Assembly (NCBI RefSeq): GCF_036346595.1
Contig: NZ_CP107834.1
Location: 2,046,001-2,110,000, forward strand
Source of the DNA: Streptomyces sp. NBC_00525
Lineage (GTDB): Bacteria; Actinomycetota; Actinomycetes; Streptomycetales; Streptomycetaceae
Direction of reading: 5' to 3'
DNA length: 64,000 bases
Positions 37,675 to 44,159 of this stretch are shown one piece after another. Position numbers and translations under genes: made by a program. The notes beneath the pieces were generated by a model, which ran no database searches, was not told the origin of the DNA, and saw nothing but the letters and a program-made list of their open reading frames with translations. How positions within the stretch are numbered: position 1 is the first letter of the stretch; each line of letters begins with the position of its first letter.

Positions 37675-37916
37675 AAAAGGGTTCTCCCTGAAAAAGCCGG
37701 GACCTGGGGTGCGGAATCTGAGATCTTGTTCCCATCATCCCGTACGTGCCGATGAGGCAACCCGGCGGGCCGCCCCGGCGTCCCACACACCACAGAGGGA
37801 AACGGGCAGTGACCGAAGGGGTGCCGACCACACCCCAGGGGGACACACGGCCGACAAGCACCGTACGGTTGGACGCCCGCAGTCGGCCGCATGAAAACGT
37901 GATGGAGAAGTTCCGG

Positions 37917-38885
37917 ATGCCGCACGCCACCACCGCGCCCGCTCCGCGTCACCGGCCCCGCTGGTGGACCGAGCTGCCGCTCCTGGCCCTGGTGTACGCG
38001 GCGTACTCCGGGGGCCGCCTCCTCGTACGCGGCGACGTGTCCACGGCCGTGGACCACGGCCTGGCCATCCTGCGCCTGGAGAAGGCGCTGTACCTGAACG
38101 CGGAGCACCCGCTCAACCGCCTGTTCACGGCACACCCCTCCGTCGGCATACCCTCCGACTTCGCCTACGCCTCGCTGCACTACGTGGTCACACCGGCCGT
38201 GCTGATCTGGATGTTCCGGCGCCACTCCGCGCTCTACCGCCGGGCCCGCACCTGGCTGATGACCTCCACCATGCTCGGGCTGATCGGCTTCACGCTGATG
38301 CCCACCTGCCCGCCCAGGCTGCTGGACGCGAAGCACGGCTTCGTGGACACGATGGCCCAGTACAGCTCGTACGGCTGGTGGGGTACGGAGGCGAGCGCGC
38401 CGCGCGGCATGGGCGGCATGACCAACCAGTACGCCGCGATGCCCAGCCTGCACGTGGGATGGGCGCTGTGGTGCGGCATCCTGCTCTGGCGGCACGCCAA
38501 GCACCCGCTGCTGCGGGCGGCCGGCATCGCCTACCCGCTGGTGACCACGTTCATCGTGATGGGCACCGCCAACCACTACTTCCTGGACGCGGTCGCCGGC
38601 TGCGCCGTGATGGGCGTCGGGGCCCTGCTGGCCCGGCCCGTGACGCGCCTGGCCGGCCGGGTCAGGTCGGCGCTCCTGGTCCGCTTCGGCAAGCCGGGCA
38701 CGGCGGTGGAGTCCCCGGATGTCAGTGCCGGGTGCGAGACTTCGGCGGGTGAGCGAATCCCCGGCCAGCGGACCTCCTCCGCAGAACCATCCGACGCGGC
38801 GGCGGACGGCCCGCCCCGCCGGGCCGACGCCTCCGACCGGGCAGGACGCGCCCCCGACGGGGACCCTGCGACGGCGGCTCGCTGA
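37917..38885 (+). CDS. PAP2-superfamily membrane phosphatase/phosphotransferase
   Basis: Polytopic membrane protein of 322 residues related to type-2 phosphatidic acid phosphatases and Aur1-like inositol phosphotransferases. Spans occur at about 18-38, 75-98, 105-127, 170-190, 195-215. Catalytic-type motifs are AAMPSLHVGWALW and NHYFLDAVAGCAV; the third motif (KxxxxxxRP) is degenerate. It should act on a lipid phosphate at the outer membrane face. ATG 37917 follows GGAGAAG by seven bases; an ATG five codons upstream lacks a ribosome site. The last 60 residues (after about 255) are low-complexity and overlap the start of the nuclease gene in another frame, so the true end of a functional domain is earlier. 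Confidence 0.85.
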   Translation: MPHATTAPAPRHRPRWWTELPLLALVYAAYSGGRLLVRGDVSTAVDHGLAILRLEKALYLNAEHPLNRLFTAHPSVGIPSDFAYASLHYVVTPAVLIWMFRRHSALYRRARTWLMTSTMLGLIGFTLMPTCPPRLLDAKHGFVDTMAQYSSYGWWGTEASAPRGMGGMTNQYAAMPSLHVGWALWCGILLWRHAKHPLLRAAGIAYPLVTTFIVMGTANHYFLDAVAGCAVMGVGALLARPVTRLAGRVRSALLVRFGKPGTAVESPDVSAGCETSAGERIPGQRTSSAEPSDAAADGPPRRADASDRAGRAPDGDPATAAR

Positions 38886-39957
38886 GCTGAGGGGCCCGGC
38901 GGTCGCCCCGCGCCCGCTGGACGCCCGCGCGCTCGCCGCGCTCGCCGCCAATCCGGGCTGCAAGCGGCGCGCCCTGCTCGACGGCGCCGGGGTGGACAAG
39001 GGCGCGCTCGCCTCCGCGCTGGGCTCGCCGGCCCCGTTCGGCCAGTCCCAGTTCGCCTTCATGCGGGGCAACGCCTTCGAGGCGCGGGTCAAGGCCGACG
39101 GCGGTACGGAGCTGATGCGGCTGCTGTACGAACGGCTCGGGGGCGGCGGCGAACCGCCGCGCGAGGTGCGGGTGCCCGATCTGGCCGCCGCCGGGCCCGA
39201 GGGCCGCGCCGCCAGGACCGCGCTCGCCCTGCGGGAGGCGACGGAGGCGGCCGGCTGGGCGCTGCTCGACCATCCGATGCTGGCCCTGGAGGTGGCGGGT
39301 TCGCCGGCCTATCTGGAGCCGGATGCGGTGGTGGTGCATCCGGACGGCACCTGGACGGTCGTCGAGATCAAGTCGTTCCCCATGATCGACGGCTCGGCGG
39401 ACGCCGCGAAGGTGGGCGCCGCGGCCCGCCAGTCCGCGGTCTACGTGCTGGCGCTGGAGCGGGTCGCCGAGGTCACGGACGGGGCGCGGGTGGGCCACCG
39501 GGTGCTGCTGGTGTGCCCGAAGGACTTCTCCAACCTGCCGGCCGCCTCCGTCGTGGACGTACGCAAGCAGCGCGCGGTCACCCGCCGCCAGCTGACCCGG
39601 CTGACCCGGGTCGAGGAGATCGCGGCGGCCCTGCCCGAGGGCGCCACCTTCGATCCGGAGCGCTCCCCCGACGAGCTGGCGTCGGCCGTCGAGTCGGTCG
39701 CCGCCGCCTATGCGCCGGAGTGCCTGTCCGCCTGCGAGCTGGCCTTCCACTGCCGGGCGCGGGCCCGCGCCGAGGGGGCCGTGGAGGCGCTGGGGCGCGG
39801 GGTGCGCGGTGAGCTGGGCGGGCTGACGACGGTCGCCGGGGTGCTGGCGGCGGCTTCCGGCAAGGAGGGCGATCCGGCGGACCCGGCGGTCGCCGCCCTG
39901 CGCCGCGCGGCCGCCCTGCGCGCCGAGGCGCTGGAGGGGCGGGCCCTGTGTCACTGA
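38749..39957 (+). CDS. RecB-type PD-(D/E)xK nuclease with Fe-S cysteines
   Basis: About 402 residues from GTG 38749 (an ATG ten codons upstream is possible). It has the full RecB-family nuclease motif set: GNAFE (E111), D192 in YLEPDAVVV, ExK with E206 and K208 in VVEIKSF, and QSAVY (Q228, Y232). Four cysteines, C71 near the N-terminus and C325, C329, C335 in PECLSACELAFHC, follow the C...CxnCxnC layout that holds a 4Fe-4S cluster in Cas4, AddB and Dna2 nucleases. The first 40 residues are disordered. It is the first gene of a tightly overlapping trio with the gene at 39948 and the SF1 helicase at 41555. No CRISPR genes are near. Single-stranded DNA cleavage is the expected activity. Confidence 0.82.
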   Translation: MSESPASGPPPQNHPTRRRTARPAGPTPPTGQDAPPTGTLRRRLAELRGPAVAPRPLDARALAALAANPGCKRRALLDGAGVDKGALASALGSPAPFGQSQFAFMRGNAFEARVKADGGTELMRLLYERLGGGGEPPREVRVPDLAAAGPEGRAARTALALREATEAAGWALLDHPMLALEVAGSPAYLEPDAVVVHPDGTWTVVEIKSFPMIDGSADAAKVGAAARQSAVYVLALERVAEVTDGARVGHRVLLVCPKDFSNLPAASVVDVRKQRAVTRRQLTRLTRVEEIAAALPEGATFDPERSPDELASAVESVAAAYAPECLSACELAFHCRARARAEGAVEALGRGVRGELGGLTTVAGVLAAASGKEGDPADPAVAALRRAAALRAEALEGRALCH

Positions 39958-41558
39958 TCAGCACCCTGGCCCGGATGGAGGCCGTGGAGAGCGGCCGGGC
40001 CCGGCCCACGGCCACCGTGCGGCACCGCCGGCTGACGGACCGGCCGCTCGTCCTGGTGCCGCTGACCACGGCGGGCGAGGCGGGCGCCCCGCTCGGCGCC
40101 CTCGTCGGCACGGACCGGGACGCGCCCCGGCTGCTGGCCGTGCCCCAGCCCCGCGACCGCGACCTGCGCTTCGCGTTCCTGGCCGAGCTGGCCGAGGCGG
40201 TCCTGCCGCACATCGAGGCGTACACCGACGTGGTGGAGCCCGCCGAGCGCAGCGAGGCCGATCCGGCGACGGGCAAGCGGGTCAAGGTCGAGACGGAGCT
40301 GTGCGTGGACGCCGCGCAGCTCGTGGTGCCGAGCCGGGCGGGCATCGAGTTCGTCCGGCTGCTGGGCCGCTCGATGCGGTTCCGGCGCACCGCCGAGGAC
40401 GATCCGGACACCCCGTACCCGGCGCCCGCGCGGGTGCCGCTGCTCGGGCGCTGGCTGACGCATTACGGGGAGCGGGCGCGGGTCCCCGGCTCCTCCCTGC
40501 TGCTGGCCTGCACGGACCTGCTGAACCGGCACTGGGCGACCGGCCAGTCGAATCTGGAGGACCAGCATCTGGGGGCCCTGCTCGCCTGGATCGACCCGCC
40601 GGCCGGCGAATCGGGGGCCGAGGCGGCGCTCCGGGCCGAGCTGGCCAGGGACGCGGCGGGGCAGCTGTTGTGCCCGCCGGCCGGTCCGGCCACCGATCCG
40701 GACTTCGACAACCGGCTGCTGGCCCCCGCGATCGAGAGGTACGACCGGGCGCGCGGCGCCTTCGCGGCGGCGGAGGACGGGCTCGCGGCCGATGCCCGGC
40801 TGGCCGAGCTGACCGGCGCCGAGCGGGAGATCAGGGCGCTGCTGGCCGGGGTGCTCCGGCCGACCTGGGACGCGGTGTGGCGGGGCCTGGACCTGCTGCG
40901 GGAGCTGCCCGAGGGGGTCAGGGCCGAGGACCGCTGGACCAGGGACCGCTGGTCGTTCACCGCGCACCGGGACCGGGTGCGCTCCGGTGAGCCGCCGCAG
41001 CCCCGCCGGGACGACGCGGTGACGGCCGCCCGCAAGCTGGCCTCGCGGGAGACGGCCCAGGCGCAGCTGGAGGCGCAGGAGGCGCTGGACGATCCGCTGG
41101 TCATGGCGGGCCGCCGGCTGGCCGGGGAGGCGTTCGTGGGCGAGGTGTGCGACGTGGAGATGGCGTACTCCGAGTCGAAGCGGCCCACGCCGCGCCCGCT
41201 GGTCACCGTCCGCACGGACGAGCGGCCGCAACTGGCCGCGGGCGTCAAGGTGTACCGCTCGCTGGACGGCAGGCCGCAGACCGCCGAGTTCGTGGCGCTG
41301 GAGCCGGCGGACGAGGAGGGCGGCGCGCTGTCGCTGGTGCTGCGGATCACGGACCGGATGGGGCGCGGCAAGGAGCCGGCGCCGGGTTCGGTCCCGGAGC
41401 GGGGCGACCGGATCGCCTGGACCCTGTTCGAGCACGACCAGCGCGGCGGGCCGCGGCTGCCGGACGCGGAGGAGACGCCGTGGACCCACGGCGGTCCGCC
41501 GGGCGGCCTCGACGCTGCGGAGCAACCCGATCCCGTGACCCCGGAGGACCTGCTGTGA
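39948..41558 (+). CDS. Unknown middle protein of the nuclease-helicase cassette
   Basis: A 536-residue cytoplasmic protein with no family I recognise. GTG 39948 lies inside the nuclease gene (10-base overlap) and its stop overlaps the helicase GTG (GTGA), so the three are translated together. The N-terminal 110 residues look alpha/beta (RPLVLVPLTTAGE, LLAVPQPRDRDLRFAFLAEL), residues about 130-375 are mostly helical with many charged residues, and about 390-510 look beta-rich (FVGEVCDVEMAYSESK, RPLVTVRTDE, LSLVLRITDR, RGDRIAWTLFEHD). That last part is where a beta-barrel would precede the helicase core in Dna2/Upf1-type enzymes, so I infer it supplies a DNA-binding barrel in trans. No catalytic motif is visible. 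Confidence 0.75.
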   Translation: MSLISTLARMEAVESGRARPTATVRHRRLTDRPLVLVPLTTAGEAGAPLGALVGTDRDAPRLLAVPQPRDRDLRFAFLAELAEAVLPHIEAYTDVVEPAERSEADPATGKRVKVETELCVDAAQLVVPSRAGIEFVRLLGRSMRFRRTAEDDPDTPYPAPARVPLLGRWLTHYGERARVPGSSLLLACTDLLNRHWATGQSNLEDQHLGALLAWIDPPAGESGAEAALRAELARDAAGQLLCPPAGPATDPDFDNRLLAPAIERYDRARGAFAAAEDGLAADARLAELTGAEREIRALLAGVLRPTWDAVWRGLDLLRELPEGVRAEDRWTRDRWSFTAHRDRVRSGEPPQPRRDDAVTAARKLASRETAQAQLEAQEALDDPLVMAGRRLAGEAFVGEVCDVEMAYSESKRPTPRPLVTVRTDERPQLAAGVKVYRSLDGRPQTAEFVALEPADEEGGALSLVLRITDRMGRGKEPAPGSVPERGDRIAWTLFEHDQRGGPRLPDAEETPWTHGGPPGGLDAAEQPDPVTPEDLL

Positions 41559-42889
41559 CGGCCGTTTTCGATCCGGGCGCGGCGGCGGGCCTGGCCACCG
41601 CGAAGATTCTGGACGACACGTTGAACGGCACGGCGCGGGGGGTCGTGGTGGACTCCCCGCCGGGGGCCGGCAAGTCGACGCTGGTGGTGCGCGCCGCGCT
41701 GGGGCTGGCGGCGGCGGGGCGTCCGCTGATGGTGGTCGCGCAGACGAACGCGCAGGTGGACGACCTGGTGGTGCGGCTCGCCGAGAAGGAGCCCGAGCTG
41801 CCGGTCGGCCGGCTGCACAGCAGCGACTCCGATCCGTACGACAAGGTGCTGGACGGTCTGGCGAACGTGCGGAAGTCGGCGAAGGCGGCCGATCTCGCGG
41901 ACCTGGACGTGGTGATCTCGACGGCGGCGAAGTGGGCCCATGTGAAGAACGTGGAGCCGTGGGGGCACGCGATCGTCGACGAGGCGTACCAGATGCGTTC
42001 GGACGCGCTGCTGGCGGTGGCCGGGCTCTTCGAGCGGGCCCTGTTCGTGGGTGACCCGGGTCAGCTGGACCCGTTCTCGATCGTCGGCGCGGACCAGTGG
42101 GCGGGGCTGAGCTACGACCCGGCGGCCAGTGCGGTGAGCACGCTGCTCGCGCACAACCCGGAGCTGCCGCAGCACCGGCTGCCGGTCTCCTGGCGGCTGC
42201 CGGCGTCGGCCGCGCCGCTGGTGTCGGACGCGTTCTACCCGTACACGCCGTTCCGCAGCGGTACGGACCACGGTGACCGGCGGCTGTCCTTCGGGGTGGC
42301 GTCGGACGGGTCGGCGGCGGACCGGGTGCTGGACGAGGCGGCGGAGTCGGGCTGGGGCCTGCTCGAACTGCCGGCCCGGCACACCCCGCGCACCGACCCG
42401 GAGGCGGTGGGGGCGGTGGCCCTGGTGGTCCGCCGGCTGCTGGACCGGGGCGGCGCGGCCACGAGCGAGCGGTCCCCGGACCCGGCGCCGGTGACGGCGG
42501 ACCGGGTCGCGGTCGGCACGGCCCACCGGGACCAGGCGGCGGCGGTACGGGCCGCGCTGGCGGACCTGGGCGTGACCGGGGTCGCGGTGGACACGGCGAA
42601 CCGGCTGCAGGGCCGCGAGTTCGACGTCACGGTGGTGCTGCACCCCTTGTCCGGCCGCCCGGACGCCACCGCGTTCCACCTGGAGACGGGCCGGCTGTGC
42701 GTGCTGGCCTCCCGCCACCGCCACGCGTGCGTCGTGGTCTGCCGCGAGGGGGTGACGGACCTCCTGGACGAACACCCCTCGACGGAACCGGTCCAGCTGG
42801 GCGTCACGGTGAAGTTCCCGGACGGCTGGGAGGCCAACCACGCGGTCCTGGCCCACCTGACGGAACACCGAGTGCGATGGACCCCCTGA
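41555..42889 (+). CDS. Compact superfamily-1 (Dna2/Upf1-like) helicase
   Basis: A 444-residue ATPase with SF1 helicase motifs: Walker A SPPGAGKST (K40), motif Ia in VVAQTNAQVDDLV, Walker B HAIVDEAY (D142, E143), motif III FVGDPGQLDPF, motif IV in PVSWRLPASA, motif V VDTANRLQGREFDV and motif VI CVLASRHRHACVVV. It is short for the family because the usual inserted 1B barrel and other accessory domains are missing, which fits the idea that the preceding gene supplies them. GGAGG lies a few bases before the GTG start, which overlaps the previous stop. With the Fe-S nuclease it makes a Dna2-like activity set. DNA end-processing or defence is the likely purpose. Confidence 0.85.
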   Translation: MTAVFDPGAAAGLATAKILDDTLNGTARGVVVDSPPGAGKSTLVVRAALGLAAAGRPLMVVAQTNAQVDDLVVRLAEKEPELPVGRLHSSDSDPYDKVLDGLANVRKSAKAADLADLDVVISTAAKWAHVKNVEPWGHAIVDEAYQMRSDALLAVAGLFERALFVGDPGQLDPFSIVGADQWAGLSYDPAASAVSTLLAHNPELPQHRLPVSWRLPASAAPLVSDAFYPYTPFRSGTDHGDRRLSFGVASDGSAADRVLDEAAESGWGLLELPARHTPRTDPEAVGAVALVVRRLLDRGGAATSERSPDPAPVTADRVAVGTAHRDQAAAVRAALADLGVTGVAVDTANRLQGREFDVTVVLHPLSGRPDATAFHLETGRLCVLASRHRHACVVVCREGVTDLLDEHPSTEPVQLGVTVKFPDGWEANHAVLAHLTEHRVRWTP

Positions 42890-43367: not shown

Positions 43368-43487
43368 AGCCTCCGGCTACCACCATGGGCATATGCCCGC
43401 GCGAACCATACTCCTCGCGCGGTTATCGTGTCACGGTTTTCGGCAACTCTCGGAATCCGGCCGATCACTCCGGGTAGACCTGTCCAC

Positions 43488-44159
43488 ATGACCGCATGGC
43501 TGCCCGACGAAACGACCCTGCACCACGGCGACGGACCCTGCCTCCGCGCCGGCCACGACAGCGACCCCTTCGCGGAGCTGCGCGAGCCCGCGCGGCACCA
43601 GACGGCGCAGATCACCGCCGCCGGTGCCGCGTGGCTGGCCGGGGCGACGGCGTATCCGCGCAGCGCCCTGTCCCAGTGGGAGGCGCGCCCCACGGCGCCG
43701 GGGGTCCTGCCGTGCGGTACGGCGTTCGACGTGGTGAACGTGCCGACGCTGTTCGGGCGCCGGATGCTGGAGCACCTGTGGGCCGACGGGCCGGGTTCGG
43801 GCCCGGTCGCCTCGCACCGGGGGCGGATGCTGCTGTTCGCCTCGCCGGGCACCGCGCAGCGGCTGCCCTCGCTGCTGGACTGGGAGGAGTGGGGCGACGG
43901 CGCGCGGACGCCCGCGCTGCTGTGTCACGGCACCGGGGATGCCGTCACGGTTCCTCCGCTGACCTGCGGCGACAGCTACGCGGGGCCGCGCTGGCTGGTC
44001 GCCCCCGACACGCGCAACCCCTGGCTGCCGGGGCCGGACGTCCTGCTGTGGGCGTGCGTCCGGGTGGCCCGTTCGGTGCCCGCTCCGATGCCCCGGATTT
44101 CGATTTTTCCTCTCACGGATCAGGGTGCTAAGGTCTACGACGTCAGCAGGCGCCGCTAG
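43488..44159 (+). CDS. PrimPol-N-like protein with 3' end overlapping tRNA-Lys
   Basis: A 223-residue protein related to the N-terminal domain of bifunctional DNA primase/polymerase proteins of actinobacteria: ITAAGAAWLAGATAYPRSALSQWE, FDVVNVPTLFGRRMLEHLW, GPVASHRGRMLLFASPGTAQ, AVTVPPL and RWLVAPDTRNPWLPG. The acidic active-site residues of a working primase are not clear, so it may be a regulatory or degenerate form; the protein at 35037 shares the motif order. The last residues (FPLTDQGAKVYDVSRRR) are encoded by the promoter and first ten bases of the tRNA-Lys gene at 44150, where the TAG stop lies. That tail is probably not part of the ancestral protein. The start at 43488 has a weak ribosome site. 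Confidence 0.7.
   Translation: MTAWLPDETTLHHGDGPCLRAGHDSDPFAELREPARHQTAQITAAGAAWLAGATAYPRSALSQWEARPTAPGVLPCGTAFDVVNVPTLFGRRMLEHLWADGPGSGPVASHRGRMLLFASPGTAQRLPSLLDWEEWGDGARTPALLCHGTGDAVTVPPLTCGDSYAGPRWLVAPDTRNPWLPGPDVLLWACVRVARSVPAPMPRISIFPLTDQGAKVYDVSRRR

Follow-up and report, generated by a model that had tools for sequence, protein, structure and literature searches.

The window analysed here, a stretch of 64,000 nucleotides from the chromosome of Streptomyces sp. NBC_00525 (NZ_CP107834.1, positions 2,046,001 to 2,110,000), contains three overlapping genes on its forward strand (38749-42889) that encode, in this order, a nuclease, a protein annotated as hypothetical in the database (here called the middle protein) and a helicase. 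The host chromosome (C1) has 6,805,448 bases and identical inverted ends. A first-pass annotation of the DNA had already delineated these three open reading frames (ORFs) with overlaps of 10 and 4 bases, and both the frames and the overlaps are confirmed (Table 1). The nuclease ORF ends at 39957 and has in-frame start codons only at 38719, 38725 and 38749; its 5' part shares approximately 137 bases, in another frame, with the upstream PAP2_3 ORF (37746-38885). All three genes are present in the window's order in 74 of 80 Streptomyces loci from other species, and in the remaining 6 the nuclease is missing where the contig stops (one of them also lacks the middle gene). Substitutions are concentrated at the third codon position, with 62, 58 and 164 changes at positions 1, 2 and 3 for the middle protein compared to locus L029. 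This bias, together with the gene order and overlaps kept across loci, demonstrates that the trio does not consist of chance ORFs.

A Pfam search with the nuclease sequence returns PDDEXK_1 alone, below threshold (E 0.019), and neither NCBIfam nor PADLOC has a match for it. However, the best matches of the predicted fold among PDB structures are Cas4 and EXO5; a viral model library adds PD-(D/E)XK and exonuclease V/VIII models (38 matches at E <= 0.001), and the RecB-type nuclease domains of AddAB, RecBCD and AdnAB are also among the fold matches. The protein models as a PD-(D/E)XK nuclease of the RecB/Cas4/EXO5 type, so that the 'RecB-type' label it had been given fits at the level of the predicted fold. 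Four cysteines are conserved without exception, both among core sequences (36 of 36) and across core and accessory copies (8 of 8; see below), in keeping with the earlier label 'Fe-S'; the four-cysteine cluster itself is a prediction from sequence. The alignments also contain invariant residues that we take to be the PD...ExK nuclease motif and, presumably, the QxxxY motif of the RecB family.

The helicase has Pfam matches over threshold to AAA_11 (E 3.1e-11) and AAA_12 (E 9.6e-7). Its best families are AAA_11, AAA_30 and AAA_12, with UvrD_C_2 at just E 0.16, and a comparison of its profile with solved structures lists DNA2 first (E 4.3e-11), followed by SMUBP-2/IGHMBP2 and UPF1, confirming that this is a compact superfamily 1 (SF1) helicase as proposed. 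Matches in PADLOC are partial only (MkoC best at E 1.8e-7, MkoA at E 9.5e-7), and the helicase had no match among phage records at E 1e-15. Four conserved stretches presumably correspond to motifs I, II, V and VI. UPF1-like motors carry a stalk and a barrel ahead of motif I. Since the helicase has 444 residues and motif I starts at residue 34, there is no space for either part in this protein; the IGHMBP2 match range in the structure comparison is consistent with a stalk and barrel ahead of motif I.

For the middle protein, Pfam gave no usable match and NCBIfam and PADLOC gave none. In its AlphaFold2 model (pLDDT 85.7), the C-terminal part folds like the stalk and beta-barrel missing from the small helicase itself, and the best structural matches of the barrel are IGHMBP2, Sen1 and Setx. 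The first-pass annotation had called this an extra protein of unknown fold, a description that the model contradicts for the C-terminal part. The likeness of the N-terminal domain to PolB exonuclease domains is no higher than background level.

Table 1. Features of the three-gene locus (window coordinates) and integrase genes beside accessory copies (locus coordinates).
Feature	Position	Strand	Remarks
Nuclease gene	38749..39957	+	Predicted Fe-S type, RecB/Cas4-like PD-(D/E)XK, 402 aa
First of four invariant Cys codons	38959..38961	+	From alignments
PD...ExK motif (assumed name)	39322..39372	+	D codon 39322, E 39364, K 39370; invariant in alignments
QxxxY motif (assumed name)	39430..39444	+	Q and Y invariant in alignments
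C-x3-C-x5-C, last three of four invariant Cys	39721..39753	+	From alignments
Nuclease/middle gene overlap, 10 bases	39948..39957	+	Exact in 58/74 Streptomyces loci
Middle gene	39948..41558	+	536 aa; GTG start
N-terminal alpha/beta domain of middle protein	40038..40682	+	Weak resemblance to PolB exonuclease (RNase H-like) domain
Helical stalk region of middle protein, residues 251-391	40698..41120	+	Predicted from model
C-terminal beta-barrel of middle protein, residues 388-496	41109..41435	+	Model resembles IGHMBP2/Sen1/Senataxin helicase barrel
Middle/helicase gene overlap, 4 bases, GTGA	41555..41558	+	Start available in 66/79 Streptomyces loci
Helicase gene	41555..42889	+	UPF1/Dna2-like SF1B core, 444 aa
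Motif I (assumed name), SPPGAGKST	41654..41680	+	Invariant in alignment
Motif II (assumed name), DEAYQ	41978..41992	+	Invariant in alignment
Motif V region (assumed name), DTANRLQGRE	42590..42619	+	Invariant in alignment
Motif VI region (assumed name), VLASRHRH	42701..42724	+	VLASRHR invariant in alignment
Mu/TnsB-type integrase genes	L155:3-1499; L156:18085-19638; L158:17755-; L159:18173-19681		

A model of the middle protein matches 233 of 246 Streptomyces genomes (partly drafts, as are the surveyed genomes generally), at a conserved locus. The nuclease and helicase are also absent from 11 of the 13 genomes without it, with borderline partial matches to the helicase profile in G113 and G198 (E 9e-4). 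The other two have pieces of the nuclease and helicase (G102) or a whole helicase (G112), all at contig edges. In a control set of 20 genomes with a middle-protein match, the nuclease gave no match in G010 and the helicase none in G001, which is 79% complete. Among 41 genomes assigned to Micromonospora by inference, the middle protein and strong helicase matches occur in the same 31, and G568 and G569 have weak helicase matches only. In the 22 genomes with both genes on one contig, these share a strand, the middle gene being ahead at a distance of 16.8-99.9 kb, with the core nuclease-middle pair on one side of a variable segment and the helicase on the other. These data support the conclusion that the trio genes come and go jointly, as a single unit. 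Co-occurrence, which the first-pass annotation had proposed to survey, thus takes the form of joint presence and loss in Streptomyces and, in Micromonospora, of shared retention even though the helicase is 17-100 kb away. The idea of a single unit is strengthened by this pattern and by a gene fusion (see below), while the physical complex is something we infer; 'co-translated' may describe the Streptomyces genes but not those of Micromonospora, whose separation shows that the overlap is not obligatory.

Stretches of the Micromonospora interval were viewed in four genomes, and eight large proteins from three of the genomes were scanned. Four match defence models, namely a MkoC/Hhe-like helicase (G430), a kinase-like protein and a type IV restriction enzyme (both G536) and DpdH (G551), and four match nothing. 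The interval (L220-L222, L225-L228) may be an insertion hotspot inside a former operon.

In a survey of the phylum, the middle protein proved to be rare, with matches in 15 of 296 genomes, 12 of them from the window's genus, with a weak match in G518 (E 3.7e-5); the protein database adds homologues in Micromonospora, Nonomuraea and Plantactinospora. G518, from another actinobacterial family, has a distant middle-helicase pair (L202:4154-12325; helicase 32% identical) in which no nuclease was recognised, and its neighbours, named by eye, are a SNF2-like helicase, an apparent DNA cytosine methyltransferase and a ribonucleotide reductase. The sole type of fusion found joins the middle protein and helicase in one ORF, in the accessory copy L158. 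An apparent nuclease-middle fusion in L040 was rejected, as its translation shows undetermined bases between the genes and points to a scaffold gap. Long shared frames in G010 and G180 are most likely frameshifts, given that their middle-protein matches are broken.

Searching the window genome with the trio revealed a second complete, divergent trio near both chromosome ends, with identities to the core trio of 47% (nuclease), 39% (middle protein) and 56% (helicase). Together with a gene for a protein of approximately 281 residues, it lies in both terminal repeats (L009:14669-19506 and G000:C1:6784062-6788896). Such an accessory copy is present in 21 of 246 Streptomyces genomes, and the approximately 281-residue gene stands directly upstream of the trio in exactly those 21 genomes and in none of the others. 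The search covered 28 genomes; G001, G010, G130, G147, G154, G180 and G224 were left out as they contain only pieces or broken matches, which we read as a core copy cut by a frameshift or contig edge, and an independent search with the approximately 281-residue protein agrees with this exclusion.

The accessory loci, around most of which 20 kb were covered, have two kinds of neighbourhood, and this association of a divergent second copy and its upstream gene with SbcCD/Wadjet or with pPIWI-RE is new in this analysis. The first kind (class iii) comprises 15 loci: 12 of the 20 other genomes, the ends of the window genome and two plasmids. Divergent SbcD is found in all 15; it is truncated in L168, where SbcC is absent, and in L093, where the record ends, SbcCD is fragmented. 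On the plasmids, these genes carry the annotations SbcCD subunit D and SMC-family ATPase. Mostly within the 20 kb viewed, 8 of the 15 loci also contain a homologue of the Wadjet protein JetA, of type I in L092, L093 and L169 and type II-like in the window genome, L157, L162, L168 and L171. The terminal SbcC of the window genome matches TIGR00618 with E 1.7e-56, below the curated cut-off, and the Lamassu protein LmuB far more weakly (E 1.1e-14); the terminal nuclease has no PADLOC match. In the second kind (class ii; 8 of the 20 genomes), the neighbours are divergent pPIWI-RE genes, with cluster members of PprPDDEXK, PprRE and PprDinG in 8 of 8 loci and the start of PprPIWI typed in one. In three accessory loci of Micromonospora, SbcCD follows the helicase in the same orientation, and two of these loci also contain JetA. 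The same partners thus occur in a different arrangement, which argues for function over a frozen cluster. A helicase tree recovers the core and one class-iii clade, each with support 100, as well as class ii with 99; class iii does not form one clade, and the deeper nodes and the long-branched L202 are without resolution.

Further genes adjoin individual accessory copies. Directly downstream of the terminal trio lies a superfamily 2 (SF2) helicase with four HA (PF03457) stretches (L009:12343-14652), to which a neighbouring gene in L157 is 70% identical; less similar relatives lie close to contig ends in G093 (L160, L207) and G197 (L204). A Mu/TnsB-type integrase gene adjoins SbcC in four class-iii loci (one member typed, four in one cluster; Table 1), which points to a Tn7/Mu-like element as a possible vehicle of the cassette. 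Large proteins of 1,765 and 1,795 codons adjoin the class-iii helicase at L156:1237-6531 and L159:1888-7272, and the former has a NACHT/AAA NTPase region and may be a STAND-type sensor. Beside the class-ii copy of L161 are, at L161:1451-7431, a Type III-like methyltransferase, with cluster relatives in L173 and L174, and a SNF2-type helicase, with one in L174.

The position of the accessory copies was analysed in nine of the 21 genomes, those with one to three contigs. Copies with SbcCD lie within 25 kb of a contig end in 4 of 5 such near-closed genomes. In the window genome, the terminal repeat of 56,709 identical bases contains the cassette, at 14.7-18.6 kb from the left end, which as assembled falls 1,881 bases short of the right one, and from 16.5 kb at the right. 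The middle gene is 21.7 kb from both ends in G129, the G049 copy is 21.5 kb from both, the G093 copy is 5.6-9.6 kb from one end, and the G110 copy is approximately 0.52 Mb from an end. Copies without SbcCD (class ii) are interior in G009, G036, G179 and G197. On the plasmids, the distance of the copy from a record end is 11.6-15.6 kb in the linear NBC_01244 and 3.2-7.2 kb in WAC00288, whose record is given as circular. For 4 of 5 within 30 kb, binomial P values are 1e-8 for uniform placement and 7e-6 if only the outer tenths are allowed, both nominal given the post hoc choice and no correction for shared ancestry. A published study reports that Wadjet and Lamassu are found preferentially towards the ends of Streptomyces chromosomes (31% of Lamassu lie in the first or last 1%) and terms this enrichment intriguing (PMC10482375). 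On a second contig of the window genome (C2, 296,756 bases), decayed middle-protein and SbcC fragments lie approximately 1-2 kb from one end (L203:953-1939), and the accessory cassette may once have stood there too.

The surroundings of the core trio are of a different kind. Counted in 65 full-length core Streptomyces loci, with domain names from Pfam, the neighbours His_Phos_1 (65/65), a 139-residue protein without Pfam domain (64), PAP2_3 (61), a TPR protein (60), a 431-residue protein with no Pfam match at the threshold used (59) and GGDEF/EAL (57) are well kept, and Bac_luciferase (only 38) is the lowest among the flanking genes. A Prim-Pol gene (PF09250, E 4e-6; 43428-44159), here a stand-alone domain, follows approximately 0.5 kb downstream of the trio and is kept in 63 of 65 loci. 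A PADLOC scan of ten proteins on either side of the trio (32.7 to 48.9 kb) gave generic domains only (E 1e-4 to 1e-7) and no defence-specific match, in line with the earlier statement that no CRISPR or restriction genes lie nearby.

One of the closest known enzymes is Bad from Geobacillus stearothermophilus, a single-chain bacterial DNA2-like helicase-nuclease characterised in 2020, which has 5' to 3' unwinding activity and cleaves close to junctions with 5' overhangs; in the available part of that paper its role is unexplained and its central domain is without known relative (PMC7430649). The earlier suggestion that such a module had not been described therefore does not hold for enzymes of this kind. 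By their descriptions, Bad has an iron-staple RecB-type nuclease and SF1B helicase, as predicted for the trio, and is flanked in Geobacilli by a Type III-like methyltransferase, as is the class-ii copy L161; however, it is one chain, monomeric, rare and sporadic, and the trio is three chains and near-universal in Streptomyces (PMC7430649, accessible text). The iron-staple cysteine spacing also differs, with x3 in the trio nuclease instead of x2. Eukaryotic DNA2 is likewise a single polypeptide, without a separate middle protein or an approximately 281-residue partner. The trio thus shares with Dna2 and Bad the RecB-type nuclease fold, the four conserved cysteines and the UPF1-like SF1B helicase, but its activities are spread over three ORFs, joined only as far as the middle-helicase fusion in L158. 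The comparison to Dna2 made in the first-pass annotation consequently stands for the parts and their split chains, with DNA2 as first profile match; its novelty in kind does not. The TM0106 family (TIGR03491) has the same part order in a single chain (PDDEXK_1, RNase_H_2, AAA_11/AAA_12), a helicase part homologous to the trio helicase (hhalign 99.2%, E 2e-19) and a C-x2-C-x5-C pattern that is one residue shorter than C-x3-C-x5-C of the trio nuclease. Neither the window nuclease nor the middle protein matches TIGR03491 or PF13482, and the window genome has no TIGR03491 match. Like the trio, AddAB, RecBCD and AdnAB are helicase-nucleases of more than one chain and have nuclease domains of the RecB type, but they use UvrD-like SF1A motors, in contrast to the AAA_11/AAA_12 helicase of the trio. 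Among known anti-phage systems in PADLOC there is no full-length match for any of the three proteins, and a literature search found nothing on the trio, or on SbcCD, Wadjet or pPIWI-RE with the four-gene unit, a weak negative as subscription literature was thinly covered.

Because of the folds, we regard a three-chain enzyme that processes DNA ends in the manner of Dna2 as the economical reading, and a probable one. The helicase protein would be a bare UPF1-type SF1B motor, to which the middle protein would supply the stalk and beta-barrel that are normally in the same chain, probably docking the nuclease via its N-terminal domain; the PD-(D/E)XK domain of the nuclease would be held by the four-cysteine cluster. 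Such a complex may load on a 5' single-strand/duplex junction at a DNA end, with the motor running 5' to 3' and the nuclease ahead clipping the 5' strand (resection). Mre11-Rad50 feeds Dna2 in eukaryotes, and Wadjet linearises circular plasmids. Class-iii copies appear to be coupled to SbcCD, which would recognise and open ends, and about half also to Wadjet, and class-ii copies to a pPIWI-RE module; the likely task of the accessory copies is to degrade the DNA ends that the partner system generates or encounters. A bolder version, possible but tentative, sees SbcCD, the approximately 281-residue protein as adaptor and the three-chain enzyme as a mobile defence executor, an actinobacterial counterpart of Mre11-Rad50/Dna2 that resects and destroys circular or invading DNA after it has been cut. 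The executor would join Wadjet close to the termini of linear replicons, a kind of DNA that Wadjet leaves intact, and pPIWI-RE elsewhere, with the core trio a domesticated ancestral or sister version.

It is unlikely that the trio clears R-loops or RNA:DNA hybrids rather than resecting DNA ends. IGHMBP2, Sen1 and Senataxin, which include the best barrel matches, do act on RNA or R-loops, and the N-terminal domain of the middle protein may be RNase H-like; however, that resemblance is at background level, the best solved relative of the helicase is DNA2, the SbcCD partners are DNA-end enzymes, and Cas4-, EXO5- and RecB-type nucleases act on DNA. The same idea draws on the pPIWI-RE genes and DinG-type helicase beside all eight class-ii loci, as R-loop action of PIWI-RE was inferred from DinG by the describing authors (PMC3702460, available text). 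The separate neighbours that an old operon would leave behind, without any complex, are the least probable explanation. Although operon linkage in Micromonospora is broken without loss of either gene, the two are co-retained there despite separation; joint loss in Streptomyces, the conserved overlaps, the middle-helicase fusion and a helicase without the barrel that the middle protein carries all argue for a complex.

Location raises two other explanations. That the accessory module matures or protects chromosome ends, in telomere or linear-replicon maintenance, is improbable: 225 of 246 Streptomyces genomes do without it, class-ii copies are interior in four near-closed genomes, and the family also occurs in Micromonospora and Nonomuraea. 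Copies do lie less than 25 kb from both contig ends in three genomes and from one end in a fourth, as well as near the end of two plasmid records, and the 56.7 kb repeat contains the cassette, but terminal regions collect Wadjet and Lamassu (PMC10482375, accessible part), so that position may reflect cargo turnover. We also doubt that the window copy alone is an anti-phage or anti-plasmid system. Its paralogues sit in defence neighbourhoods and half of the large proteins scanned in the Micromonospora segment match defence models; however, defence systems are usually patchy, whereas the core trio occupies its conserved locus almost throughout Streptomyces, with no full-length PADLOC match of its own and no defence-specific neighbour among the ten scanned. 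The 'anti-phage module' of the first-pass annotation finds no support in the window copy, and some backing in the paralogues beside Wadjet and pPIWI-RE.

Returning to the three-chain Dna2-like enzyme, the window copy is most likely its core, vertically kept Streptomyces version, serving housekeeping end-processing or the clearance of foreign DNA. General end-processing is likelier than dedicated immunity, since the copy is core, has no defence neighbours among those scanned and is followed by Prim-Pol. With three separate proteins, the coupling of nuclease, accessory domain and motor can be studied by adding or removing whole proteins, which bears on the central domain and role of Bad enzymes, a question left open in the accessible text of PMC7430649. 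The accessory copies bear on another, raised in the available part of PMC10482375, namely why SMC-type defence systems gather at Streptomyces chromosome ends, and the linkage of SbcCD to a Dna2-like enzyme provides a testable prediction on the fate of plasmids after cutting by Wadjet.

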